The notes beneath the pieces were generated by a model, which was not told the DNA's origin, searched no databases, and saw only the letters and a list, made by a program, of their open reading frames with translations. The translations under genes and the position numbers were made by a program. Source: Neobacillus ginsengisoli (GTDB lineage: Bacteria; Bacillota; Bacilli; Bacillales_B; DSM-18226). Taken from it: a stretch of 64,000 bases of DNA. The stretch is taken from positions 186,001 through 250,000 of the forward strand of contig NZ_JAUSTW010000006.1 of the NCBI RefSeq assembly GCF_030813055.1, written 5' to 3'. This document shows, one piece after another, positions 3,513 to 41,800 of the stretch. The first letter of the stretch is position 1; each line of letters opens with the position of its first letter.

Positions 3513-4469
3513 TTAATGCCTCTTTACAATTTTCTTAATAACGTAATGATAAAGGGCAGCTCCATTTTTGATGATGTCTTTTATTTCTTTTTTTTGCTCT
3601 TTTGTTAAAAGGTCAATCTGCAAATAATGGCCTGATTCATAGTCTGTGTGGTTTCCAAATTTCAATCGGTAGTGTAATAGTTTAAGAAACATGGTTTTAT
3701 ATAATTCTTTGTCCTGAACATGTAGGTTATCGAGCCTGGAAAGGGTAGAGGTATCCATCAATTTCTCTTGAACGGCCAAAAGCCTAATCGCATTTACATA
3801 AGGGAAAAGAGCGATATCCTTAATGTTTAGTGAACCTGTATGGACCCCGTGTGTTTCCGTTAAAATTTGGCCCAACACGCCTATCCCCTTTTTAAGATGA
3901 AGTGTATTTTCGAGGAATCTGGGCAGAAGTTGTTTTTTGTGAACTGTTTGATAGATGGATGTTTTTAAATTCTCTACCAATCGCTGCTCCCCTGTAACAG
4001 CCCGTGCATCAATCAAAATTAACAAATGCCGAATCGATTCCCATGAGGACTCCTCGGTCCATTCCATAATCTGCTGTTCCCATTCGAATAATGATTTGCA
4101 CCATAGAGGATTACAGGACATTACACCGCCATCGCAGTATTTATAGCCGGCTTGATGCAAGCCATCAGAAATCTCTTTTCCTAATGCTAAAAAATAGACT
4201 TTTGCCACATCATTTTTGTCTTCATAGATGATTCCATGATCTTGATCACTCCAAACCGATTGTTCATAACGACCCGCACTGCCCATAACAAAAAATGAAA
4301 ATAGGGAAGGGGGTGGACCAAACGCGTCGGTCATTTGATAAAGCGCAGTGTTTAAAACTTGCAAAAGTATATCCTCATGAACTTGATTTAGTTTAAAGTG
4401 ATCGCCGGAGGCATCCTTCATTTGGGATTCTCTGTATTTCCTAATTTCTGAGAAGGTGCGGTATTCCAT
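3513..4469 (-). CDS. DUF294-type nucleotidyltransferase (GlnD-like)
   Basis: 318 residues. A nucleotidyltransferase core of the GlnD/DUF294 type is recognisable from GSAGRYEQSVWSDQDHGIIYED (about residues 64-85), which holds the G-S-x-G-R-x-E signature and the two metal-binding Asp residues. The C-terminal half is helical, as in the DUF294 C-terminal substrate-binding region. There are no CBS or ACT domains. GlnD relatives uridylylate PII proteins; whether this one does is unknown, and no glnK/PII gene is visible here. It is encoded between amt and the exonuclease gene on the same strand, behind AAAGGAGGG. A hairpin after amt probably limits read-through. Confidence 0.75.
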   Translation of the reverse strand: MEYRTFSEIRKYRESQMKDASGDHFKLNQVHEDILLQVLNTALYQMTDAFGPPPSLFSFFVMGSAGRYEQSVWSDQDHGIIYEDKNDVAKVYFLALGKEISDGLHQAGYKYCDGGVMSCNPLWCKSLFEWEQQIMEWTEESSWESIRHLLILIDARAVTGEQRLVENLKTSIYQTVHKKQLLPRFLENTLHLKKGIGVLGQILTETHGVHTGSLNIKDIALFPYVNAIRLLAVQEKLMDTSTLSRLDNLHVQDKELYKTMFLKLLHYRLKFGNHTDYESGHYLQIDLLTKEQKKEIKDIIKNGAALYHYVIKKIVKRH

Positions 4470-4499
4470 TCTTACCCTCCTTTCCGGAAAAATCCAAAG

Positions 4500-4544
4500 G
4501 GCGGTGCAATCCCCGATGTATATTTACAGGGATTGACCACCGCT
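4500..4544 (-). terminator. Hairpin after amt
   Basis: Arms GGGCGGTGCAATCCCC and GGGATTGACCACCGCT pair with few mismatches around a 14-base loop. On the minus strand it is followed by a T-containing tract (CTTTGGATTTTT). It probably terminates or attenuates amt transcription ahead of the downstream pair. Confidence 0.6.
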
Positions 4545-4561
4545 CATTAAAAGTATTGTTA

Positions 4562-5824
4562 TTAGGCTTTCAGTTTTTGTTCAACCTCTAATAATTCAGG
4601 GTAACCATAGCTGCCATGTTCACTCATATCAAGTCCAATGATTTCTTCTTCCTCAGTAACACGCAATCCATTCATGACAGCTTTCATTATCACTAAAATG
4701 ATATAAGATACAATAAATGCGAAAGCGGCACAAGTAAAGACTCCCATTGCCTGAACTCCTAACTGATGAAAACCGCCGCCATAAAATAAACCGGGTTTAC
4801 CGACAGTCGCTAATTCTTTCGTTGCGAAAAAGCCATTTGATAATGTCCCCCAAACCCCTGCAGTTCCGTGTACAGATAGAGCTGCAATTGGATCATCAAT
4901 TTTTCTGTTCTCAAAGAAACGAATACTATAAAATACAAGGATACCTGCGATAAAACCGATTACGACAGCAGCCCATGTATCTACAAAACCGCAGGATGCC
5001 GTAATTGCTACTAAGCCTGCTAATGCACCATTTAACATCATCGGTACGTCTGCTTTGCCCATGACCATCCAGGAAACAATCATAGCGGCAACGGTGCCGG
5101 CAGCTGCTCCCAGGTTGGTATTAAGGGCAACAAATCCAAAGAATGCTTTATCAGCGGATAATGTACTGCCGGCATTGAAGCCAAACCATCCGACCCATAA
5201 AAGCAACACGCTTAATGCTGTGAAGACTTGGTTATGGCCGGCGATATTATTAGCTGAACCATCCTTATTATATTTTCCAATCCGAGGTTTTAATATAATT
5301 GTTGCTGCAAGTGCTGCCATAGCTCCAGTTAAATGAACAACGGTTGAGCCGGCAAAATCCTGCTTTCCATGCGCTGCTAACCAGCCGCCTCCCCAAATCC
5401 AATGGGCGATAAAAGGATAGACAAATATTGAAAAAAGTACAGCAAACACGAGATATGCAGCTAATTTTGCCCGTTCGGCAAAGCCGCCGAATGCAATGGT
5501 TAAGGAAATACCCGCAAAGGCTAATTGAAATAAAAAGAAAACAGATCCAGATAGGGATAAACCTTTAATTTCATATCCTGAATAGAAAAAATTGGAAAAA
5601 CCTATAATTGCATTTCCTTTTCCAAAGGCTAAACCGTATCCGACTGCCCAAAACACGATGGAACCGATGCTAAAAGTAAGGATCGTTTTACCTGCGATAT
5701 GTCCTGCATTCTTCATTCGAGTCGAACCGGTTTCGAGTAGAATGAAACCTCCGATCATCAGAATAACGAGGACTGCTCCGACCATTACCCATAGACTGTT
5801 CAATAAAAATGTAGTATTCATCAT
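4562..5824 (-). CDS. amt: Ammonium transporter (Amt/NrgA family)
   Basis: Membrane channel for ammonium uptake under nitrogen limitation. 420 residues with the usual 11 hydrophobic spans. Family motifs include FAGSTVVHLTGAMAALAATI, GWFGFNAGS and DDPIAALSVHGTAGVWGTL. The start used is the ATG pair just after AAAGGAGG (5822-5824); a more upstream ATG at 5860 would begin inside a TnrA box and lacks a ribosome site. Many bacteria place glnK beside amt; here a GlnD-like gene and an exonuclease gene follow instead. Two exact TnrA/GlnR boxes precede the gene, one upstream of the likely promoter and one in the leader. Confidence 0.95.
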   Translation of the reverse strand: MMNTTFLLNSLWVMVGAVLVILMIGGFILLETGSTRMKNAGHIAGKTILTFSIGSIVFWAVGYGLAFGKGNAIIGFSNFFYSGYEIKGLSLSGSVFFLFQLAFAGISLTIAFGGFAERAKLAAYLVFAVLFSIFVYPFIAHWIWGGGWLAAHGKQDFAGSTVVHLTGAMAALAATIILKPRIGKYNKDGSANNIAGHNQVFTALSVLLLWVGWFGFNAGSTLSADKAFFGFVALNTNLGAAAGTVAAMIVSWMVMGKADVPMMLNGALAGLVAITASCGFVDTWAAVVIGFIAGILVFYSIRFFENRKIDDPIAALSVHGTAGVWGTLSNGFFATKELATVGKPGLFYGGGFHQLGVQAMGVFTCAAFAFIVSYIILVIMKAVMNGLRVTEEEEIIGLDMSEHGSYGYPELLEVEQKLKA

Positions 5825-5842
5825 TTTGCCTCCTTTAATGTA

Positions 5843-5859
5843 TGTTAATTTTTTTAACA
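5843..5859. promoter_or_regulatory. TnrA/GlnR box in the amt leader
   Basis: TGTTA-ATTTTTT-TAACA matches the consensus TGTNA-N7-TNACA exactly. It lies between the likely amt start site (about 5867) and the ribosome site, a position where a bound regulator would block elongation or initiation. Confidence 0.7.
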
Positions 5860-5873
5860 TTCTCTGTAGTTGT

Positions 5874-5880
5874 ATTTTTA
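5874..5880 (-). promoter_or_regulatory. Probable amt -10 region
   Basis: The minus strand reads TAAAAAT at 5880-5874. Transcription would begin near 5867, about 50 bases from the centre of the upstream TnrA box, the spacing typical of TnrA-activated promoters. No good -35 is present, as expected for an activator-dependent promoter. Confidence 0.45.
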
Positions 5881-5908
5881 CATGGATGTGAGATGGAATC
5901 CATATTCT

Positions 5909-5925
5909 TGTCAGAAAACCTCACA
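5909..5925. promoter_or_regulatory. Upstream TnrA box of amt
   Basis: TGTCA-GAAAACC-TCACA is an exact TGTNA-N7-TNACA match centred at 5917, roughly -50 from the inferred amt start. In B. subtilis TnrA activates nrgA from a site at about this distance. Confidence 0.75.
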
Positions 5926-5980
5926 TGGTTTCTGAGTCTGCTTTGTAATGATGGGGTTGAACAAAGAGTTAGCTCAACAG

Positions 5981-6012
5981 GAAAAGCCGCACTGCCAATT
6001 TGGTAGTGCGGC
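5981..6012 (-). terminator. Terminator of the small-protein operon
   Basis: GCCGCACTGCCA (5986-5997) and TGGTAGTGCGGC (6001-6012) form a perfect 12-bp stem with a 3-base loop. On the minus strand it is followed by TTTTC, ending the two-gene unit 6061-6373. Confidence 0.7.
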
Positions 6013-6060
6013 CTCATATGGGTGGCTGATTAATAAAGGTATTCATTTGAGATGAGGAGA

Positions 6061-6222
6061 TTATTTTTTTGGGGTACATTCTTTCTTAACGATACTCTTC
6101 AATTCACTTAAGGTAAAAGAGTGTAGTTCCTTGTCGGAAGTATGATATATTCCGGATGCTACCAGCTTATTGATATAAAACTGTTTTAGGCTTTCCATTC
6201 CTCTCCGTAATTGATTAGGCAT
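6061..6222 (-). CDS. FbpA-like small basic protein
   Basis: 53 residues, too short for many gene callers. ATG behind AAGGAGGGAG. The pattern LRRGMESLKQFYINKLVASGIY followed by LHSFTLSELK is that of the Fur-regulated basic protein FbpA family (Leu-Arg-x-x-x-Glu, Leu-Ile-x-Lys-Leu, then Leu-Thr-Leu-Ser-Glu-Leu). FbpA/B/C proteins are linked to the iron-sparing response in B. subtilis. Here no Fur box was seen; the operon instead carries a perfect TnrA box at -50, so nitrogen control is suggested. Family identity comes from recalled motif similarity only. Confidence 0.6.
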   Translation of the reverse strand: MPNQLRRGMESLKQFYINKLVASGIYHTSDKELHSFTLSELKSIVKKECTPKK

Positions 6223-6235
6223 TTATTCTCCCTCC

Positions 6236-6373
6236 TTAACTATTTTGGAGTTTGCGTAAAAGTTCGTGAGCTCTTGGGCCGAGGATGATCATTAGCTCTT
6301 CATACAATTCATCTCTTAATTTATCTAATTGCAGGATTGTTTCAGCTAATTTAACCGCGTTTGGTCTATTCAT
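6236..6373 (-). CDS. Small conserved-looking helical protein
   Basis: 45 residues. ATG with ribosome site GGAGAGGGAG. The sequence is charged and helical (AETILQLDKLRDELYEELM) and ends HELLRKLQNS. It is the first gene of a two-gene operon, 13 bases ahead of the FbpA-like gene, whose ribosome site overlaps its stop region. No function is known. A promoter and an exact TnrA box precede it. Confidence 0.6.
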   Translation of the reverse strand: MNRPNAVKLAETILQLDKLRDELYEELMIILGPRAHELLRKLQNS

Positions 6374-6405
6374 TTAATTTCTCCCTCTCCATCGTTTATA
6401 TGTAA

Positions 6406-6434
6406 AAGATAGCTGAGGATTTCGATTTTGTCAG
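6406..6434 (-). promoter_or_regulatory. Promoter of the small-protein operon
   Basis: Minus strand: -35 CTGACA (6429-6434), 17-base spacer, -10 TATCTT (6406-6411). Start near 6399. The TnrA box centre lies 50 bases upstream. Confidence 0.6.
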
Positions 6435-6440
6435 AGAGTT

Positions 6441-6457
6441 TGTTAGGGAAATTAACA
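6441..6457. promoter_or_regulatory. TnrA box of the small-protein operon
   Basis: TGTTA-GGGAAAT-TAACA is an exact TGTNA-N7-TNACA match, centred at -50 from the predicted start of the 6373/6222 operon, the preferred TnrA activation position. Confidence 0.7.
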
Positions 6458-6482
6458 AGATTTTTAATTAAAAGACTAACAA

Positions 6483-6524
6483 AAAGAGGTTGCCTCAAAA
6501 ATCACTTTTTGAGACAATCTCTTT
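6483..6524 (-). terminator. tnrA terminator
   Basis: AAAGAGGTTGCCTCAAAAA pairs with TTTTTGAGACAATCTCTTT with two mismatches; on the minus strand it is followed by TTTTTG. Ends the tnrA transcript just downstream of its stop codon. Confidence 0.75.
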
Positions 6525-6538
6525 AAATTAACATAAAC

Positions 6539-6868
6539 TTATTGCCGCTTCCGAAATCCAAATTGAGCATTGAGCTGTCCTTGGATCATTTTCCTGCGAA
6601 TGTCCTCTTGGTTTTGTTTCTTCTCCTCCCGGAGCATTTCTTTTCTGATTTCATGTGTCTGAAGGCCATCTTCGATTTTATTGGCGATATCCATCAATAA
6701 TTCAACATCTGCAAAGGAGTATTTACGGGAACCCCCAGGGGATCTTTCGGGGAAAATCAGTTTCCTTTCTTCGTAATAACGTATTTGTCTTTCGGATAGT
6801 CCGGTTAAATCCCTTACAATCCCAATCGTTATAACCTTCTTATCTTTATAAGACAAATCTTTACTCAT
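6539..6868 (-). CDS. tnrA: Global nitrogen regulator TnrA (MerR family)
   Basis: Activates and represses nitrogen genes when nitrogen is limiting; in B. subtilis its activity is blocked by feedback-inhibited glutamine synthetase binding its C-terminus. 109 residues, matching TnrA length (110). The N-terminus [55 protein letters not shown] winged helix contains the MerR signature [11 protein letters not shown]; the C-terminus [12 protein letters not shown] is the glutamine-synthetase-binding tail that separates TnrA from GlnR. ATG start after GGTGAGAG. It stands alone, with its own terminator. An exact TnrA box upstream implies positive autoregulation, as known in B. subtilis. Confidence 0.93.
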
Positions 6869-6901
6869 TTAATCTCTCACCACACTAACCTCGTTTACTG
6901 T

Positions 6902-6929
6902 AGTTTATTAAAAATTTTTAAAATTACAA
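6902..6929 (-). promoter_or_regulatory. Probable tnrA promoter
   Basis: Minus strand: TTGTAA (6924-6929), 16-base spacer, TAAACT (6902-6907). Start near 6895, which puts the TnrA box centre (6945) at about -50. Confidence 0.5.
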
Positions 6930-6936
6930 CATTTTA

Positions 6937-6953
6937 TGTTAGATTTTCTCACA
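6937..6953. promoter_or_regulatory. TnrA box upstream of tnrA
   Basis: TGTTA-GATTTTC-TCACA, an exact TGTNA-N7-TNACA match. Centred about -50 for tnrA and about 40 bases upstream of a possible rightward start beyond TATAAT at 6973. Confidence 0.75.
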
Positions 6954-6972
6954 TAAAAAATAATTTTGGAAA

Positions 6973-6978
6973 TATAAT
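6973..6978 (+). promoter_or_regulatory. Divergent -10 (TATAAT) opposite tnrA
   Basis: A perfect TATAAT without a -35 hexamer, just right of the TnrA box. It could fire rightward into the gap before glnH. No open reading frame longer than a few codons follows the nearby AAAGGGGGAA. Confidence 0.35.
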
Positions 6979-6984
6979 GCTTTG

Positions 6985-7079
6985 TTTTAAAGGGGGAATT
7001 TTAATTGAAATATTGGTAGTGAGTTTAGACTAGGTATTGAATAATATAAAAAAGCAACGTTAAAGAACGCTGCTTTTTT
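6985..7079 (+). ncRNA. Candidate TnrA-linked small RNA
   Basis: Roughly 95 bases between a TATAAT box and an intrinsic terminator, with no usable reading frame, transcribed divergently from tnrA beside the shared TnrA box. The terminator may instead belong to the dehydrogenase remnant on the other strand, so this call is speculative. Confidence 0.25.
7048..7079. terminator. Bidirectional terminator
   Basis: AAAAAAGCAACGTT and AACGCTGCTTTTTT form a near-perfect stem with a 4-base loop and A/T tracts on both sides, so it can work in both directions. Confidence 0.75.
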
Positions 7080-7088
7080 CGTAATTAA

Positions 7089-7226
7089 TTAATTAATATT
7101 CACTAACGTTCTGCCCCGTACCTCAGCTTTTAAAATAGAGGATAAATAAAAAGGCAATTGGTCTAATGTTACTTCTTTATTAATCGTTTCTAATAGAATA
7201 TTCACTGTAGCCGCCGTAGTGACAGA
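7089..7226 (-). pseudogene. C-terminal remnant of a quinone oxidoreductase/alcohol dehydrogenase
   Basis: The open segment has no start codon and an in-frame stop (7227-7229) at its beginning. It encodes about 45 residues ending EVTLDQLPFYLSSILKAEVR and GRTLVNIN. The pattern Leu-Asp-x-Leu-Pro, Ile-Leu-Lys, Gly-Arg-Thr-Leu-Val-x-Ile is the usual C-terminus of medium-chain zinc-type or quinone oxidoreductases. The rest of the gene is gone. It probably once used the terminator at 7048-7079. The remaining gap, 7230-7479, shows only A/T-rich sequence; no TnrA box was found ahead of the transporter. Confidence 0.5.
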
Positions 7227-33136: not shown

Positions 33137-34384
33137 ATGATAGAAAGTATCAAGAATCCCAAGCTCATCTATGAAGAAAAGAAGGCGATTGTTCTTTTTT
33201 TATGGTTGTTTAATTTAATGTTTTATTCTTTTGATATTTTCTATAACTATATTAGGCCTAGACTACATCCTCAAGAAAGCAATTTCGACACTAAGGATGG
33301 TTTAGGGGTATGGTTATATGTCCTTGTTCTAGGGATGCTGCCGTTTGCTATTTATTTTATTAAAAAGGATAATCCTTACATTGTAAAGTTTATCTACATC
33401 ATTGGCTACATATGTATTGATATTACTGATACTCTTATTACATATTTGGGAACAACGAAATCTTATGCTTCGGGAAATATTGTTGAGGTTTTATTTATTC
33501 TTTTTTCCCCTATGTTTGTCAATAAAAAATATTTTTGGACAGTCTCAGTAGGGATGATAGGGAAGGAATTCTTATTAGGGTTAATTTTAAAAGATTTAAA
33601 CGTATTAATACCAGCAATTATCTATTTAATTTTAACTGTAATTGCCTATGTGTTATTAATACGGTTTGATTCTTATATTAATTCCTTACAAACTGTCTTC
33701 GAAGAGCTGAGAAAAAAAGAGAAGCTAGCTGTTGTTGGCCAAATGGCAGCTGCCATTGGTCATGAAATTCGTAATCCGCTTTCATCATTAAAGGGGTTCA
33801 CACAGTTGCAACAGGAACGATATCCTAATACTAACGATTTCTATCCAATCATGATCCAGGAAATTGATCGAATCAATTCAATTGTGAACGATTTGATGTA
33901 CCTTGGTAAACCAAAGGCAATTGAACTTGAAAAAGCAAGCATTGAAGAAATTATTGCTTATACTTTATCGATTACTCAACAACAAGCTGAAATGCTGGGG
34001 GTTACTGTTGAAACGATTATAGAAGGACCCCTATCTCAAATTGATTGTGATGACAAACAGCTAAAGCAAGTGTTTATAAACTTATTAAAAAATGCCATTG
34101 AAGCAATGCCTGAAGGCGGAAAAATAAAAATCCGTGTCAAAGTTTCAAAGGAACACAAAATGCTAATCTCTATTGAGGATGAAGGTTGCGGTATTGCAGA
34201 AGAAAATATTCTTAACATAGGGGAACCATTCTATACCACGAAAAAAGATGGAACAGGCCTCGGTTTAATGGTAACGAATCAAATTATTAAGGACCATAAA
34301 GGGAAGTTTAGTATTCAAAGCAGACTCGAGAAAGGAACTAAAGTGGAAGTAGAATTACCAATAAATCAAAAATTGTCAAAATGA
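33137..34384 (+). CDS. Membrane sensor histidine kinase
   Basis: 415 residues. N-terminal membrane domain of about six spans (residues 18-180), then a HisKA domain with phospho-His 209 in AAIGHEIRNPLSSLKGF, and a HATPase with N box KQVFINLLKNAIEAMPEGG, G1 EDEGCGIAEE and KKDGTGLGLMV. No PAS or HAMP domain and no partner response regulator gene nearby, as in orphan sporulation kinases. Its membrane domain is homologous to that of the next gene (G-N-x-V-E, L-x-S-P-x-F-V-x-K pattern). ATG after GAGGGAGC. The ligand is unknown; the nearby peptide is a candidate. Confidence 0.88.
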   Translation: MIESIKNPKLIYEEKKAIVLFLWLFNLMFYSFDIFYNYIRPRLHPQESNFDTKDGLGVWLYVLVLGMLPFAIYFIKKDNPYIVKFIYIIGYICIDITDTLITYLGTTKSYASGNIVEVLFILFSPMFVNKKYFWTVSVGMIGKEFLLGLILKDLNVLIPAIIYLILTVIAYVLLIRFDSYINSLQTVFEELRKKEKLAVVGQMAAAIGHEIRNPLSSLKGFTQLQQERYPNTNDFYPIMIQEIDRINSIVNDLMYLGKPKAIELEKASIEEIIAYTLSITQQQAEMLGVTVETIIEGPLSQIDCDDKQLKQVFINLLKNAIEAMPEGGKIKIRVKVSKEHKMLISIEDEGCGIAEENILNIGEPFYTTKKDGTGLGLMVTNQIIKDHKGKFSIQSRLEKGTKVEVELPINQKLSK

Positions 34385-34639: not shown

Positions 34640-35830
34640 ATGAAAGAACAAGTAATAGATCCAAATGTAAGAAATGAAGAAACCAGGACGCTAAAATGGT
34701 TTTTAGTTTTATTTTATATTATATCCATTTCATTTGACATAATTTATAAATTCATCTCAAGTTATATTCCGCAACTAAATGACAATACACCGGATAAATT
34801 GATTTATTGGATATATCTATTCATGTTTGCCTTATTACCGGTGGCCCACTATTTTACTAAAAAACAAAAATCATATGTAATTAAGTATATCTATTTTATA
34901 AGTTATACCTCCTTAACATTTTTAAATGATGCAGTTACATTTATTGGAAAACCTGATTTGTATAGGGGTGGAAATGCAGTAGAAATCTTTTGGATTTTGT
35001 TGTCACCGATATTTGTTAGCAAACCTTTTGTTATCGTTGTTTCTCTTGGAATAATTTTAAAATATATTATTGTTGGACTAATCATTAAATCCCCTGTCGT
35101 TTTTTTAGGTATTGTATTGGTATCTACTTTATCAGTTTTTTCATTTATTTTGTTATCCCGATTCCAATCATATGTAAATGCAATAAAAACTTCCTATGAT
35201 CAACAGCTAACAGGTATTGTAAAGGGAGTTATTGCAACTCTTGAGCTTAAGGATCCGTATACAAGAGGCCATAGCGAACGAGTTGCAAGTTATGCTCTAG
35301 AACTAGCAAAAATTAGCGGAAAGTTTACTGATGAAGAGTTGAAAGCTTTTAATTTTGCTTGTTTACTCCATGATATAGGAAAGATACATATTCCGGACCA
35401 AATTTTGATGAAGCCGTCACGTCTCACAAATGAAGAATATGAAATCATTAAGTCACACACAACAGTGGGTGCAGAGGCAGTCTCGAAAGTAGCAGGATTT
35501 AGTAATAGCATTGAGGTTATTCGATCTCACCATGAACGTTGGGATGGAAAAGGATACCCCGACCAATTGAAGGGGAAGGAAATTCCGTATCTTTCTCGGG
35601 TTGCAGCAATTGCAGATGCCTTTGATGCGATGACGTCCAATAGATCCTATAGAGCAGCTTTATCTGTTGAAGAAGCATATAAGCGGATCTTGGAGGGAAA
35701 AGGAACCCAGTTTGATCCTGAATTAGTTAGTTTATTTCAAAAGGCATATCCGCTATGGGAAAAAATCCATGATTTGTCCTTTAAAAATGATGCAAATGCA
35801 AAATTAAACATTAGTTTAGCAGTTAACTGA
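34640..35830 (+). CDS. Membrane-anchored HD-GYP domain protein
   Basis: 396 residues. Six-span membrane domain (residues 18-180) related to that of the upstream kinase, then an HD-GYP hydrolase: HxxR region RGHSERVASYALELAKIS, His244-Asp245 in LLHDIGKIHIPD, HERWDGKGYPDQLKG with the GYP triad at 305-307, and IADAFDAMTSNRSYR. All expected metal ligands seem present, so c-di-GMP phosphodiesterase activity is plausible. ATG behind GTGAGG. It is followed after 19 bases by the small Cys/Trp peptide gene. Confidence 0.9.
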   Translation: MKEQVIDPNVRNEETRTLKWFLVLFYIISISFDIIYKFISSYIPQLNDNTPDKLIYWIYLFMFALLPVAHYFTKKQKSYVIKYIYFISYTSLTFLNDAVTFIGKPDLYRGGNAVEIFWILLSPIFVSKPFVIVVSLGIILKYIIVGLIIKSPVVFLGIVLVSTLSVFSFILLSRFQSYVNAIKTSYDQQLTGIVKGVIATLELKDPYTRGHSERVASYALELAKISGKFTDEELKAFNFACLLHDIGKIHIPDQILMKPSRLTNEEYEIIKSHTTVGAEAVSKVAGFSNSIEVIRSHHERWDGKGYPDQLKGKEIPYLSRVAAIADAFDAMTSNRSYRAALSVEEAYKRILEGKGTQFDPELVSLFQKAYPLWEKIHDLSFKNDANAKLNISLAVN

Positions 35831-35849
35831 TTTTAAGGAGGTGATAGCC

Positions 35850-35915
35850 TTGAAAATCCGTAAATTAAAAAAAGTTAAAGCAACTGGTCTATGCTGGGTA
35901 TGTTGGTTTATGTAA
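35850..35915 (+). CDS. Cys/Trp-rich 21-residue peptide, candidate RiPP or signal precursor
   Basis: Start TTG lies 8 bases after TAAGGAGGTGAT, a ten-plus-base match to the 16S 3' end and the strongest ribosome site in the window. The peptide has a Lys/Arg-rich N-terminal half (KIRKLKKVKATG) and a hydrophobic core LCWVCWFM. A terminator follows at once, and 75 bases after the stop begins a PqqD-M50 metalloprotease. This matches the architecture of a short precursor with a leader and a modified/cleaved core. It could be a signal for the two membrane proteins upstream. The product is not recognised; a non-coding leader is the main alternative. Confidence 0.6.
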   Translation: MKIRKLKKVKATGLCWVCWFM

Positions 35916-35916
35916 C

Positions 35917-35957
35917 AAAAAGAAGGGTGCTAGCAAATAACTTAGCATCCTTCTTTA
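35917..35957 (+). terminator. Terminator after the peptide gene
   Basis: AAAGAAGGGTGCTA and TAGCATCCTTCTTT form a near-perfect stem, followed by ATTT. It would make the peptide message far more abundant than the downstream protease. Confidence 0.8.
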
Positions 35958-35989
35958 TTTATAGATTACTAGTTAGGAACGGTGTTTAA

Positions 35990-37180
35990 ATGAAGATAAC
36001 ACTGAGTTCACAGCTTTTGTTGGTTCCAATCGAAATTCGAAAAGATAAACGGCATTATATCGTAGAAGATTTAACCTCAGGTGAATTTTACGAGATGCCG
36101 GAGGTTTGTATAAAAGCTATCCACTTGATTCAACATGGTGAGGTACTTGGAGAAGTTGAAAGACAGCTTAGAGAAAAATTCCCAGAGGAAGAGGTTGACC
36201 TCATTGATTTTGCGGAACAGCTTTTTGAGTTAAACCTTATAACGGAGATTGATAGTATTAAGGTGGAATTTAAGCAAAAGAAAAAAGAAAGCCTAGGCTT
36301 TTTGTGGATTTCGCCAAGGATTGGGAAATTCTTTTTTAATAAAACAGCTTTTATTGTTTATTTATTATTATTTATGATAAATGTCGGTCTCCTCATCTAC
36401 CATCCGGCCTTATTTCCACACTATAAGGATTTATTTATATTTCATTTAATGGTGTTAAATATACCTTCTTGGTTGTTGTTAACGAGTGTTTTGGTGTTAA
36501 TTCACGAATTGGGACATGTGCTTGCAATGAGAGCTAAACATCTCCCAACCAAATTAGAGGTTGGTCACCGTTTATTTCTTGTGGTGCTGGAAACCGATAT
36601 GTCAGCTGTATGGAAACTGCCCTCAAAGGACCGGAACGTTTTATATTTAGCAGGTTTATGTTTTGATACGATGGTTCTTTTTCTGGCTTTAATCAGTCAA
36701 TTAATCTTCTTCAAAGGATCGGAGATTTTCCTGAGCATTATGCATGTGGTTGTCTTGGATACGTTTATTCGCATGGTGTATCAATGCTGTGTTTATATGA
36801 AAACCGATCTATATTTTGTTTTTGAAAATGTTTCGGGCTGCTATAATTTGATGGAAAATGCAAGGCAAATAATTAGAAAATGGCTTCCGATTCAACAAAC
36901 TTCTTCAAAAGGAGAGGTTATATTTGCAGGTGAAAGAAAACCGGTTTACTTTTATTCCATTTTCTATTTTGTTGGTGTAGTTTTGACGATTACGCTTTAT
37001 GTGCTATTTTATATCCCTCAATTATGGTTTGCTTGGAAAAACGTTTTTCCCGGATTCGAACAAGCTCCTACATCCTTAGCTTTTTGGGATGCATCTCTTT
37101 TCTCCTTGCAACTTTTGCTTGGTTTTATGCTGCTGTTATTTTCTTGGCGGAAAAAATATCTTAAGTCTTTTCTAAATTGA
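35990..37180 (+). CDS. PqqD-like/M50 membrane metalloprotease (RiPP-type)
   Basis: 396 residues. Residues 20-90 (HYIVEDLTSGEFYEMPEV to LFELNLITEI) resemble the PqqD/RiPP-recognition fold. The rest is a membrane domain with HELGH at 172-176 (zinc ligands and catalytic Glu) in a transmembrane helix, and a later TDLYFVFENVSGCYNL segment that would carry the third (Asp) ligand as in TDGY-type peptide-associated zinc metalloproteases. About six spans. Such fusions occur in RiPP gene clusters, where they recognise and cut a precursor. No radical SAM or transporter gene lies next to it. ATG; ribosome site weak. Confidence 0.8.
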   Translation: MKITLSSQLLLVPIEIRKDKRHYIVEDLTSGEFYEMPEVCIKAIHLIQHGEVLGEVERQLREKFPEEEVDLIDFAEQLFELNLITEIDSIKVEFKQKKKESLGFLWISPRIGKFFFNKTAFIVYLLLFMINVGLLIYHPALFPHYKDLFIFHLMVLNIPSWLLLTSVLVLIHELGHVLAMRAKHLPTKLEVGHRLFLVVLETDMSAVWKLPSKDRNVLYLAGLCFDTMVLFLALISQLIFFKGSEIFLSIMHVVVLDTFIRMVYQCCVYMKTDLYFVFENVSGCYNLMENARQIIRKWLPIQQTSSKGEVIFAGERKPVYFYSIFYFVGVVLTITLYVLFYIPQLWFAWKNVFPGFEQAPTSLAFWDASLFSLQLLLGFMLLLFSWRKKYLKSFLN

Positions 37181-37465: not shown

Positions 37466-38548
37466 ATGGAGTCAACAATTTCAACGACTAAAAAAGAAGG
37501 ACGCTCGATCAGTGATGCCTTTGCATCCCATTTTGCTAAATCAGTGTTCCTAACAATTGCCGGAATTGCCGTTTTAGTTTTTATTGGAACAAGAATGTTT
37601 ACCCATATTGACTTGAATCTTTACGGATATATGGTTGGAACCATCGTGTTTATCGGAGGATTTTTCTACCGGTTTATTGCATGGGGGGAAAGGCCGCCAA
37701 CCAAAATTATTATTAAAAAAGGCCTAAAGCTGCTATTTAGAAAAAGTACTGCTAAAACTGCTGTTAGCCATTTAGCGATTTACGATTTCATTCGGAATCG
37801 GGGAGTTTATCGCTGGGTTCAGCATATCCTAATCGGCTGGGGCTGTGTTCTTGCCTGCCTAGTAACGTTTCCACTTGTATTTAGCTGGATGTATTTTACG
37901 ATGGAAAACAATGGCTATTACACTATCGTGCTTTTTGGAATGAATGTGCTGAAGGTACCTGCAGAAGGAATCATTGCATTCTTCTCCTATAACGCACTAA
38001 ATATTGCAGCGGTAATGGTAATTTCAGGTGTTTGTATGGCATTGTACCGCCGGTTAAGAAATATGCAAGCAAGAGCGGAACAAAAGTTTATGTATGATTT
38101 CCTTCCTCTTTACTTATTGTTATTTATTTCGATTACCGGACTTTTATTAACGTTCCAAAACATTGTACTGCACGGCTGGATGCAGCCGCAAATGTCGCTG
38201 ATCCACCAATTTTCCGTAATTGTTACTTTAATCTATTTACCATTTGGCAAGCTTGCCCATATCCCATTCCGTCCTATGAGTGTCTTTGCAAGAAACTACC
38301 GTGAACATTATGGAGAACAACATATGAAAGAATGTAAAGTGTGCGGAGATAAATTTGTTTCAGTTGAACAATCAAACGATGTTATTCAAGTATTGGGAGT
38401 CAATGATATCGAATTTAATATGCAAGATGGTTTTAATCTCGCTGAATTGTGCCTGCCATGCCGCAGAAAATACCGAATTTCAAGATTTTCAGGATTCGCA
38501 ACCCACCAAGTAAAGGTCAAGGAGGCAAACCAGAATGCAAAGGGATAA
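37466..38548 (+). CDS. Membrane subunit of the nitrate-reductase-like complex (cytochrome b-like)
   Basis: 360 residues, about six spans, with His residues in membrane segments (VQHILIGWG, IHQFSVIV, ILHGWMQPQM-like VLHGWMQPQM) that could ligate haem; a NarI-like quinol-oxidising role is likely. The soluble C-terminus has CKVCGDKF and CLPCRRK, a four-Cys zinc or Fe site. ATG after GAGGAGG. Overlaps the molybdoenzyme gene by 14 bases. Family not firmly named. Confidence 0.7.
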   Translation: MESTISTTKKEGRSISDAFASHFAKSVFLTIAGIAVLVFIGTRMFTHIDLNLYGYMVGTIVFIGGFFYRFIAWGERPPTKIIIKKGLKLLFRKSTAKTAVSHLAIYDFIRNRGVYRWVQHILIGWGCVLACLVTFPLVFSWMYFTMENNGYYTIVLFGMNVLKVPAEGIIAFFSYNALNIAAVMVISGVCMALYRRLRNMQARAEQKFMYDFLPLYLLLFISITGLLLTFQNIVLHGWMQPQMSLIHQFSVIVTLIYLPFGKLAHIPFRPMSVFARNYREHYGEQHMKECKVCGDKFVSVEQSNDVIQVLGVNDIEFNMQDGFNLAELCLPCRRKYRISRFSGFATHQVKVKEANQNAKG

Positions 38549-40703
38549 GTTTTTTAAAGAAATAGAAAATGTACGCCACCCAAATGAAACGCTCGTTAAA
38601 ACTCACTGTGCTTACTGCGGCATGCAATGTGGGATGAATTTACGAGTAAATACAAAAACAAATAAAATTATCGGGGTCGAACCTCGTTATGACTGGCCCG
38701 TAAACGTCGGCAAAATGTGTCCTAAAGGGGTTACCGCCTATCAACAAACCAACCATGACGATCGTATTTTAAAACCGTTGATCCGTGATGATGCTTCTTT
38801 AAAAGGAACAAAAGAAGGCTTCCGTGAAGCAAAATGGGATGAAGCATACAGACTAATCGCATCGAAATTTGCAGAGCTACAAACTAAATACGGAAAAGAT
38901 ACATTATCTGTTTTCAGTGGTGTATCAATGACAAATGAAAAATGTTATTTAACTGGAAAGTTTGCTAGGGTTGCTATGCAAACACGTTATATCGACTATA
39001 ACGGTCGATTCTGTATGTCGAGTGCAGCGGGTGGCTTCCTTCGCTCTTTTGGTGTTGACCGTGGATCAACTCTTCCTTGGACAGATATTCATGAAACAGA
39101 TTGTATGTTTATTGCAGGAAGTAACACAGCAGAATGCCATCCAACTTCGATGTTCCGCGTTTGGGCGGTACAGGAAAGAGGGGGTTACTTGATTGTAGCT
39201 GACCCTCGTGAAACGCCAATCGCAAGAAGAGCAGATGTGCACTTAGATTTAAGACCGGGTACAGATCTGGCACTAGCGAACGGAATTTTAAATCTATTAA
39301 TACAAAACGGCTATGCTGATGAAGATTTCGTTAACAACCATACAAATGGATTTGAAGAAACAAAAGAATTGGTGAAAGAATTCACGCCGGAATATACAAG
39401 CCAGCTTACAGGGGTTGCTCCTGAGAAGATCATCAGAGCAGCAGAGATTTACGGAAAAGCACCGAATGCCATCGTCATGTTTGCCCGTGGTATTGAACAG
39501 CAGCATAAAGGGGTCGACAATGTTTCTGCATATACTAATATGGCTCTTGTTACCGGTAAAATCGGTCGGCCAAAAGCTGGGGTAGCAACCTTTACAGGTC
39601 AAGGAAACGGTCAAGGCGGCCGTGAGCATGGACAAAAATCTGATTTACTTCCAGGTTATCGTAAACTCACAAACCCTAAACATGTTGAGGAAGTATGTAA
39701 AGTATGGGGGATTACCCCAGAAGAAATGCCGCAGCCGGGTGTTTCTGCATACGAGATGTTCGAACTGATGGAAGAGAAAACTATTCGAGGTCTTTACTTA
39801 CTATGTTCAAACCCAGCTGTTTCCGCTCCAAATCAAAACTTTGTCCGCAAAGCATTAAAAGGCCTAGACTTTATGGTTTGTTCAGACTTCTACTTGTCTG
39901 AATCAGCGGAGTTTGCCGATGTCATTCTACCATCCGTAACTTGGTCTGAAGATGAAGGAACGGTAACAAACCTAGAAGGCCGTATTATTAAAATTAATAA
40001 AGCACAGGAGCCGCTGGGTGAATCAAAACCTGACTGGCAAATTCAAGCAGAACTAGCTGAATACCTTGGAAGGGGAAAATATTTCTCTCATTTAAAAACG
40101 GCAAAAGATGTAGCGGATGAGTTCCGATTAGCTTCTAAAGGCGGTTATGCTGACTATTACGGTGCAACTTGGGATAAAATCGACAAACAAGATGGCGTCT
40201 TCTGGCCTTGTAAGGATGAAAAGGATCCTGGAACACCACATATGTTTTTAGATAAAAAGTTTTATCATCCAGATGGAAAGGCGAAAATTTGTGCACTTCC
40301 ATACCGCCCGCCTGCTGAAGAGCCGAATGAAGAATATCCTTTACGCTTAACAACAGGACGCGTTGTTTTCCACTACCTATCAGGAAACCAAACGAGAAGA
40401 ATACAATTCTTACGTGATATGTGTCCAGAACCATATGTAGAAGTACATCCAGAAACAGCTGCAAACTATAACATTGAGCATGAAGAGTATGTCCGCCTTT
40501 TTACTCGAAGAGGCGAAGCAGAATATAAAGTGAAGATTACTGAAGCTATCCGAAAAGATACGGTTTTTGTTCCGTACCATTTTGGACATGAAAAATCTAT
40601 TAATCTCTTAACGATTCCTGCGCTTGATCCAATATCACGGATGCCGGAATTCAAAGCATGTGCAGCACAGATTGAAAAACTAAAAAAAGGGGCGGTGCAG
40701 TAA
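38535..40703 (+). CDS. Molybdopterin oxidoreductase, Nas/Nap-type nitrate reductase catalytic subunit
   Basis: 722 residues, probable nitrate reductase. N-terminal [4Fe-4S] cysteines 25, 28, 32 and 62 (HCAYCGMQC, GKMCPKG). Cys160 in NGRFCMSSAAGGFLRSFG is the molybdenum ligand position of NapA/NasA enzymes. GQGNGQGGREHGQKSDLLPG is typical of assimilatory NasA-type reductases. No Tat signal, so cytoplasmic. B. subtilis NasC pairs with a flavoprotein; here membrane and Fe-S partners are encoded instead, suggesting quinol-driven reduction. ATG behind AAGGAGG. The substrate is inferred, not proven. Confidence 0.85.
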   Translation: MQRDKFFKEIENVRHPNETLVKTHCAYCGMQCGMNLRVNTKTNKIIGVEPRYDWPVNVGKMCPKGVTAYQQTNHDDRILKPLIRDDASLKGTKEGFREAKWDEAYRLIASKFAELQTKYGKDTLSVFSGVSMTNEKCYLTGKFARVAMQTRYIDYNGRFCMSSAAGGFLRSFGVDRGSTLPWTDIHETDCMFIAGSNTAECHPTSMFRVWAVQERGGYLIVADPRETPIARRADVHLDLRPGTDLALANGILNLLIQNGYADEDFVNNHTNGFEETKELVKEFTPEYTSQLTGVAPEKIIRAAEIYGKAPNAIVMFARGIEQQHKGVDNVSAYTNMALVTGKIGRPKAGVATFTGQGNGQGGREHGQKSDLLPGYRKLTNPKHVEEVCKVWGITPEEMPQPGVSAYEMFELMEEKTIRGLYLLCSNPAVSAPNQNFVRKALKGLDFMVCSDFYLSESAEFADVILPSVTWSEDEGTVTNLEGRIIKINKAQEPLGESKPDWQIQAELAEYLGRGKYFSHLKTAKDVADEFRLASKGGYADYYGATWDKIDKQDGVFWPCKDEKDPGTPHMFLDKKFYHPDGKAKICALPYRPPAEEPNEEYPLRLTTGRVVFHYLSGNQTRRIQFLRDMCPEPYVEVHPETAANYNIEHEEYVRLFTRRGEAEYKVKITEAIRKDTVFVPYHFGHEKSINLLTIPALDPISRMPEFKACAAQIEKLKKGAVQ

Positions 40704-41264
40704 ATGAAAAAAAGACTATATTTAGAACTTGAAAACTGTATTGGGTGCCGCTCTTGCTTGGCAGCCTGTACGCAATGCGGCGGACATGATCAGCGGAACC
40801 GGAACTATGTTTACGATGTCAACCCGCTTGTTAACCGTCAAACGATGCCGCTTATGTGTCTTCATTGTGTAAATCCGGCATGTGCAAGAAGCTGTCCGGC
40901 TCAGGCAATACAAATCCATGAGACAGGCGCGGTTCTTTCCGCCCTTGTTGAAAAATGTATTGGCTGCCAAAACTGTACGATTGCCTGCCCGTATGGTATT
41001 CCGAAATTTGATACCGAGCAAAATCTAATGTATAAATGTGATCTTTGCATTGATCGCACTAAGGACGGAATACCGCCAATGTGTGCGAGTGTATGTCCTT
41101 CCAACACACTGCAATGGTTGACTGATGAGGAAATTGAAGCAAAACAAAAGCAATTTAATCTTGATAATGGTAAATGGGTGACAAGCATGCCTTATTTAGA
41201 GGGCGAAACAAATGTAAAAGTGAATCTTCCCGGTATCTTACAGGGCGTTACGAAATTGTTTTAG
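40704..41264 (+). CDS. Four-cluster ferredoxin subunit (NrfC/NarH-like)
   Basis: 186 residues with four cysteine groups for four [4Fe-4S] clusters: CIGCRSCLAAC, CLHCVNPACARSC, CIGCQNCTIAC and CDLCIDRT..CASVC. It should carry electrons from the membrane subunit to the molybdoenzyme. No Tat signal. Starts directly after the catalytic gene stop (GTAAATG context). Confidence 0.9.
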   Translation: MKKRLYLELENCIGCRSCLAACTQCGGHDQRNRNYVYDVNPLVNRQTMPLMCLHCVNPACARSCPAQAIQIHETGAVLSALVEKCIGCQNCTIACPYGIPKFDTEQNLMYKCDLCIDRTKDGIPPMCASVCPSNTLQWLTDEEIEAKQKQFNLDNGKWVTSMPYLEGETNVKVNLPGILQGVTKLF

Positions 41265-41275
41265 GAGGGATTAAC

Positions 41276-41800
41276 TTGACAGATAAAAATAATAAAATCC
41301 CGTTTGATGAAGATAACTATACTCATAATATTAACCGTAATAACGAAAGAAAGCTTGACCGCCGCGGTTTCATGAAAACATTGGTCGGTGCAGCAGGCGT
41401 GTTTGCGATCTCTTCGCTTCCATGGGGAGCGTTGGCGGCTAAAGAACTTGCCGGACTTGGAAATAAAGAATACCCGAAAAAGAAAATTACAGATGTTAAG
41501 TCAGTCGCAGTTGGTGATGCTGTTGATTTCGCTTTTCCGGGAGAACATGACAGTGCCATCTTGATTCGACTTTCAGAAAATAAGTATGTTGCCTATCAAA
41601 ATGCTTGTACACATCTGCGTTGCCCTGTATTTTGGAAAAAAGATGAGGGTGAAATGATCTGCCCTTGCCATCACGGGAAATTTGACGTAAAAACAGGAGA
41701 GCCAATTGCCGGGCCGCCCAGACGTCCGCTTCCTGAAATTCATGTGAAAGTAGAAAACGGTGCTGTCTATGCCGTGGGGGTGAAACGTTATGAAGCGTAG
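41276..41800 (+). CDS. Tat-exported Rieske [2Fe-2S] protein
   Basis: 174 residues. Twin-arginine motif DRRGFMK then a hydrophobic segment, so membrane-anchored outside the cytoplasm. Rieske cluster ligands in CTHLRCPVFW and CPCHHGKFD. Similar to QcrA. TTG start directly behind TAGGAGGGATTAAC. A Rieske protein with a nitrate reductase core is unusual and points to quinol oxidation on the outer side. Overlaps the next gene by 11 bases. Confidence 0.9.
   Translation: MTDKNNKIPFDEDNYTHNINRNNERKLDRRGFMKTLVGAAGVFAISSLPWGALAAKELAGLGNKEYPKKKITDVKSVAVGDAVDFAFPGEHDSAILIRLSENKYVAYQNACTHLRCPVFWKKDEGEMICPCHHGKFDVKTGEPIAGPPRRPLPEIHVKVENGAVYAVGVKRYEA

Follow-up and report, generated by a model that had tools for sequence, protein, structure and literature searches.

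Why does a soil bacillus encode a peptide of 21 residues between a predicted cyclic di-GMP (c-di-GMP) phosphodiesterase and a predicted intramembrane protease? We addressed this question for a 64,000-nucleotide stretch of the Neobacillus ginsengisoli contig NZ_JAUSTW010000006.1 (positions 186,001 to 250,000, hereafter the window). Our answer, which we hold to be probable with clear reservations, is that the peptide, guided by its leader and matured by the protease, serves as cognate ligand to the MASE12-HD-GYP protein encoded directly upstream. An original prediction, made from the letters of the window, had pointed to a peptide with a basic leader, a near-perfect Shine-Dalgarno (SD) sequence and its own terminator, followed by a HELGH protein, and all of these are present in the window sequence:

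35850..35915, forward strand: peptide gene, a 21-codon open reading frame (ORF) with a TTG start at 35850 and a stop at 35913-35915; product MKIRKLKKVKATGLCWVCWFM, with the leader MKIRKLKKVK and the core ATGLCWVCWFM
35835..35845, forward strand: near-perfect SD sequence of the peptide gene, AAGGAGGTGAT, seen in the sequence
35919..35956, forward strand: intrinsic-terminator-like hairpin and T-rich tract between the peptide and protease genes; stem 35919-35933/35942-35956
34640..35830, forward strand: MASE12-HD-GYP protein, 396 aa, directly upstream of the peptide; proposed receptor
35990..37180, forward strand: fusion of a PqqD-like recognition element (RRE) of ribosomally synthesized and post-translationally modified peptides (RiPPs) with a site-2 protease (S2P), 396 aa, downstream of the peptide gene
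35990-36259, forward strand: RRE part of the fusion, residues 1-90
36455-37030, forward strand: S2P part of the fusion, residues 156-347
36503-36517, forward strand: HELGH motif of the protease

The hairpin has a 15-bp stem and a calculated energy of -20.2 kcal/mol. An alternative in-frame start, GTG at 35841, would give a 24-aa product; this GTG falls within the SD.

Is the peptide a gene at all? Genome contigs scanned with the protease gave 40 loci, which together with 67 loci from the family of Neobacillus novalis (G003) and the window made 108. Sampling of 397 genomes of the N. novalis order led to 28 more close homologues (running total 136), and four later loci (L234, L235, L236 and L296) brought the close-protease total to 140, with one protease among them broken (L159). 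The peptide was detected with a fixed pattern in 107 of the first 108 loci (window included) and in 26 of the 28 order loci, and by eye in the others (L125; L213 and L215). It stands upstream of 140/140 close protease homologues examined. The expectation that small peptides recur beside PqqD-M50 homologues was thus borne out, and the lack of conservation that would have spoken against the original prediction was not found. The conserved motif was not the expected CWxCW, however, but CWxC (CWWC in 130/140, CWIC in 6, CWVC in 3 and CWLC in 1); W or F follows directly in 28/140 peptides, so the CWVCW of the window is a minority form and C-W-V-C-W-F does not describe the conserved core.

Each of the 140 peptides has exactly two cysteines. 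There are 132 distinct peptides with 32 distinct leaders (residues 1-10) and 121 distinct tails, that is, short precursors with a conserved leader and a variable core, as for RRE-dependent RiPPs. In 120 pairs of loci with proteases 70-80% identical, leaders were 90% and tails 28% identical. Codon-level constraint was counted over 133 of the 136 peptides (L125, L213 and L215 were missed by the regular expression and left out): there are 123 different DNA sequences for codons 2-10 but 26 different protein sequences, and the entropy is 0.37 bits at the first codon position, 0.15 at the second and 1.23 at the third. The peptide is selected as a protein, its leader being near-invariant in protein and not in DNA. 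Across 133 loci, 131 have an SD-like stretch ahead of the peptide start, a terminator-like hairpin follows the peptide in 104 (11/396 for control stretches within the HD-GYP gene), and the protease starts within 100 nt of the peptide stop in 125. At L009 the gap is 1922 nt and holds a 429-aa ORF, with the peptide intact.

The close protease was present in 105/193 genomes of the family sample (108 matches minus two distant ones and one remnant). A degenerate peptide pattern (up to 3 mismatches) matched in 83/193 of these genomes and its reversed version in 1/193; 82 of the 83 also hold the protease, the exception being G156, whose contig ends 161 bp past the match. When a 400-nt stretch was shuffled 20,000 times and read in three frames, CW[WVIL]C appeared in 13 of the shuffles. 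The codon-level constraint, the counts for pattern and reversed pattern and the shuffle result together rule out a chance ORF. Two records titled Chryseobacterium and Paenibacillus (L027 and L006, respectively) contain a locus of the Bacillaceae type (protease identity 51% and 67%) and are likely misnamed.

The gene after the peptide was originally read as a fusion of a PqqD-like fold and an intramembrane protease, and this reading was supported, albeit not by profile score: the Pfam M50 model gave 16.7 bits, under its 27.2-bit gathering cut-off, so that the assignment of RRE plus S2P rests on HExxH and structure comparison. By structure comparison the protein linked to the peptide contains an RRE/PqqD-like domain, and its membrane part has the S2P fold with HExxH and a distal Asp motif. 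The protein is a divergent M50 member by fold and motif. No sequence match in the PDB to the protease profile was found, and an NCBIfam search gave no match for either the protease or the peptide. Among 41 neighbourhoods examined, no modifying enzyme was common to all, and no exporter or immunity gene was conserved beside the peptide.

The gene before the peptide is the more informative neighbour. Pfam recognized MASE12 (98.7 bits) and HD_5 (126.3 bits) in its product, and Foldseek matched the product to the HD-GYP structures 4r8z, 4mcw and 9rbz (best E 2.7e-11). With an AlphaFold2 model of pLDDT 86.9, the protein is predicted to consist of a helical membrane domain and a c-di-GMP phosphodiesterase domain. 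A full-length homologue lies upstream of the peptide in 135/136 loci, and its catalytic motifs are retained (HD[IVL]GK in 134/135, GYP in 135/135). At L012:4673-5869, QD replaces the catalytic HD while GYP is intact, and this HD-GYP is possibly inactive. The distance from the HD-GYP stop to the peptide start has a median of -1 nt (range -23 to 69, n=132). The close protease occurs in 43 of the 397 order genomes, and an HD-GYP match covering MASE12 and the catalytic part in the same 43 (complete in 42, with the remaining one at the edge of a contig). Pfam found MASE12 in the HD-GYP of the window and in five other HD-GYPs of the module, but not in two second-tier HD-GYPs (36% identity) outside it (in G295 and at a second place in G225). 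MASE12 was present in 142/193 family genomes and 0/14 control genomes. Two arrangements differ from the usual one: a tandem pair of MASE12-HD-GYP genes precedes a single peptide and a single protease in L295 (G244; 4626-7138), and a GGDEF protein gene precedes the HD-GYP at L209:1607-2287 and L217:1597-2241, so that genes for predicted c-di-GMP synthesis and breakdown adjoin.

Does the variable part of the peptide change together with a particular neighbour? Distance correlations were calculated for 134 of the 136 loci (L147 has no full-length HD-GYP and L159 a broken protease; the three protease-less loci described below stood outside), and tests that include the kinase upstream of the HD-GYP used 97 loci. 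Core distance correlated with distance in the HD-GYP MASE12 when the HD-GYP catalytic part and the protease membrane part were controlled (partial r 0.31, permutation p at its floor); over these loci the HD-GYP catalytic part kept a small partial correlation with the core (0.07-0.13). Within clusters the partial r was 0.30-0.49, with permutation p at the floor of 1/401 in 6/6 tests. Kinship is modelled incompletely in both sets of p values. In the within-cluster tests p<0.05 was reached in 2/6 for the RRE, 1/6 for protease part 211-390 and 0/6 for the HD-GYP linker. The kinase MASE12, as divergent as that of the HD-GYP (mean distance 0.56 and 0.57), gave p<0.05 in 1/3 tests. Residue-level association, which took no account of kinship, does not count as proof here.

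Identities and trees gave a similar picture. Where the protease was 60% or more identical to that of the window, 16 loci with a short aromatic tail (no more than 4 residues, with W or F anywhere) were compared with 26 others. Mean identity was 65.7% versus 40.5% for the HD-GYP MASE12 and 84.8% versus 74.4% for the HD-GYP catalytic part, but hardly differed for the protease (66.6% versus 63.9%) or the kinase MASE12 (55.4% versus 53.3%). On trees of 97 loci, changes between TT and non-TT peptides numbered 4 for the HD-GYP MASE12 and 2 for its catalytic part, compared with 10 and 14 for the protease, 13 for the kinase MASE12 and 7 for the kinase catalytic part. Changes of aromatic type, defined for the tree and residue-level analyses as W or F within the first two tail residues, numbered 6 and 5 for the HD-GYP parts, 11 and 13 for the protease, and 12 and 10 for the kinase parts. 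Peptide type follows the HD-GYP trees and not those of the protease or kinase. The peptide and the HD-GYP thus form one evolutionary unit.

The kinase is the second membrane sensor that had originally been put forward to perceive the product:

33137..34384, forward strand: MASE12 histidine kinase, 415 aa, assigned by a Pfam search; a frequent neighbour, unsupported as the peptide receptor

While the HD-GYP half of that proposal was upheld by its strong tie to the peptide, the kinase half was not. A full-length kinase homologue was present in 99/136 loci and missing from 37, part of these gaps being genes that are broken or cut at contig or fetch ends. In 8/8 sampled genomes that have one MASE12 protein and lack a close protease, the kinase occurred alone, with neither an adjoining HD-GYP nor a CWxC peptide. 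Often missing, found alone and with a sensor domain that does not track the peptide robustly, it finds no support as the receptor.

Natural losses of the protease bear on the roles of the two halves of the peptide. G118 (L255) and G078 (L256) have kept kinase, HD-GYP and peptide at the chromosomal site of the window, with the same downstream operon, and the protease was not found in either genome; in one of the two copies in G118 the kinase is broken into two frames. In G416 (L292) an HD-GYP fragment at the contig start is followed by the peptide, and again no protease was found in the genome. There is none within 3.8 kb (G078) and 4.1 kb (G416) after the peptide, both assemblies being fragmented. 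The three peptides (MNILKLKKLITACWWCAWLGV, MKLIRFLMLIVSCWWCLWWQP and MKALIAIACWWCFFF) all retain CWWC and the SD; the hairpin that follows is terminator-like by rule in two, and that of G416, with a longer loop, fails the rule. Their net charges before CWWC are 3, 2 and 1, compared with 5 or 6 in 131/136 others. The basic leader is thus lost or degraded in 3/3 protease-less loci (partially in G118) and present in 140/140 loci with a protease gene. These losses suggest a leader in the service of the protease and a CWxC core in that of another component, the HD-GYP being the simplest option. In L254 (G076, ~3551-4803), a single deletion fuses the kinase to the last part of the protease, and the HD-GYP and peptide are both gone.

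How might the parts work together? Computation shows conservation and coding constraint, gives the predicted domains, and finds that peptide and HD-GYP are inherited jointly and that the leader is lost or decayed where there is no protease. From this we infer leader binding, cleavage, MASE12 binding and a c-di-GMP output that may be of either sign; the core may also be secreted or modified. The RRE domain would bind the basic leader MKIRKLKKxK and thereby present the hydrophobic core with its CWxC motif to the HExGH site in the membrane, where the S2P would cut; the released core would act on the MASE12 membrane domain, and this input would set the phosphodiesterase activity of the HD-GYP. Peptide, protease and HD-GYP in soil bacilli resemble a system for peptide signalling, so far undescribed, with c-di-GMP as its possible direct readout. 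A more specific version can be put forward only tentatively, at less than even chance: the peptide would be a dedicated pheromone, cut from the membrane by the RRE-guided protease, which binds the MASE12-HD-GYP within the membrane and turns the presence of neighbours directly into a change in c-di-GMP, with species-specific pherotypes set by residues both around CWxC and after it.

The same observations allow a reading that agrees with the ligand model up to the ligand-binding step. The peptide might be a membrane microprotein subunit that regulates the HD-GYP in its own cell and is never secreted, the protease only trimming it or turning it over. The near or true overlap of the peptide and HD-GYP genes, the hydrophobic core, the lack of a conserved exporter, and the survival of the peptide where the protease is missing, its N-terminus being more hydrophobic in 2/3 cases, would all suit a subunit. 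However, the hypervariable tails (28% identity at 74% protease identity) are more like a diversifying signal and a dedicated RRE-protease is hard to account for if the peptide is a subunit; we consider this reading doubtful, if well worth keeping in mind.

Joint inheritance could also arise simply because the two genes abut or overlap, the true partner of the peptide being elsewhere. The median gap of -1 nt is in keeping with such linkage, and both the catalytic and the MASE12 parts track peptide type; linkage and functional matching are not fully separable, and linkage may contribute as a cause to the match of peptide type and receptor type that we found. The partial tests nevertheless favour MASE12, which lies beyond the catalytic part as seen from the peptide gene and still correlates with the core when the catalytic part is controlled, and the HD-GYP and peptide stay together where the protease is gone. 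Linkage as the whole explanation is therefore unlikely in our view.

Distant relatives of the protease (25-30% identity), for which loci were fetched from 12 of 17 distant-only genomes and four other places, lack this peptide. At 16 distant loci from bacilli the Pfam-checked upstream genes were two ThiF and one arginase, most of the other distant loci having an ORF similar in size and place; three plasmid records have a ThiF annotation in the vicinity, one of them immediately upstream. In 13/16 distant loci a pattern written after such precursors had been seen detected precursors of 20-26 residues with an MKI/MKKI start and a leader of the KK/RK-EK kind or similar, and none in the three plasmid loci or in 11 class-level loci, whose flanks were shorter. 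In L222-L229, L232, L233 and L160-L162 the precursors are short, lie upstream and are often in tandem (e.g., MKIEVKKTEKLKPTFIPYGG and MKIVAKKVEKVKATMDAELCPGLGSC), with several of the loci beside ThiF. Judged by sequence, they look like a separate RiPP family with leaders resembling that of the window.

These relatives, neighboured by ThiF enzymes and by short precursors whose leaders are similar, lend something to the idea that the peptide is an antimicrobial RiPP like the B. subtilis epipeptide, the sensors only regulating production or immunity. An RRE fused to an M50-type protease would suit RiPP maturation, and EpeP and TglG are described as M50 proteases of RiPP pathways (PMC10885120). 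But a modifying enzyme, an exporter and an immunity gene are all not conserved beside the peptide, and co-inheritance with one phosphodiesterase is unexpected for a bacteriocin, which makes an antimicrobial role quite improbable. That the ORF, short and with Trp/Cys codons immediately before a terminator-like hairpin, might control the protease gene as an attenuation leader at the level of transcription was rejected as scarcely credible: the leader is kept as protein with third positions free, peptide type tracks the HD-GYP, and the ORF outlives the protease gene, surviving with its SD in three protease-less genomes and with a hairpin by the same rule in two.

Downstream of the module (37466-41797) the window contains genes for a molybdopterin oxidoreductase, a 4Fe-4S protein, a Rieske protein and a membrane protein with a weak nitrate-reductase-gamma match; the oxidoreductase is present in 29/41 neighbourhoods.

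For most c-di-GMP enzymes we know of no stimulus. If the ligand model is true, soil bacilli have a genetically simple route from a peptide to c-di-GMP, the MASE12 domain gains a ligand, and peptide-receptor matching can be tested by swapping natural variants. The locus would, in addition, provide an RRE fused to a protease whose substrate is minimal.

In our literature searches this peptide system was nowhere described; those on MASE12 and on the leader and core motifs gave nothing related, and among the matches listed for CWWC none was relevant. Several known systems share parts with it. Maturation of a short peptide signal by a site-2 protease in Gram-positives is the likeness to Eep/RseP, but the peptide receptors there are cytoplasmic regulators, whereas here the peptide gene adjoins that of a dedicated RRE-S2P fusion and has a membrane HD-GYP enzyme as its linked partner. 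Eep/RseP is described as maturing peptide pheromones in enterococci and streptococci and as a general RseP that cuts lipoprotein signal peptides or small peptides (PMC10202637).

In the B. subtilis epipeptide pathway, too, an intramembrane M50-type protease stands beside a ribosomal peptide. EpeX is, however, an antimicrobial modified by a radical SAM enzyme, and the present locus has no conserved modifying enzyme and an HD-GYP protein as partner. The M50 protease EpeP is thought to cleave and export the ribosomal peptide, and the pearlin proteases TglG and TmoG, also membrane M50 proteases acting on ribosomal scaffold peptides and likened here by description and not by sequence, are reported to cut the modified amino acid off the C-terminus (PMC10885120). 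In ThiF-type RiPPs (microcin C, pantocin, GRC and enterofaecin), an RRE is described as recognizing short precursors (PMC12250964), and the distant protease relatives adjoin ThiF genes with 20-26 aa precursors; the module of the window, in contrast, has no ThiF gene.

The proposed output has its counterpart in RpfR-BDSF, a quorum signal sensed by a c-di-GMP phosphodiesterase, where the account concerns a fatty-acid signal and a PAS domain in Proteobacteria (PMC8846402). In the reading proposed here a cell-cell signal would likewise directly control a c-di-GMP phosphodiesterase, with a peptide and MASE12-HD-GYP in bacilli. The overall layout is akin to that of Agr and ComX-ComP, in which a peptide, a dedicated membrane processing enzyme and a polytopic membrane receptor are encoded together and variable peptide ends have matching receptors. 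The present locus likewise places a peptide with variable ends, a membrane processing enzyme and a membrane receptor candidate side by side, but the receptor in Agr and ComX-ComP is a histidine kinase, whereas here the peptide tracks the HD-GYP enzyme.
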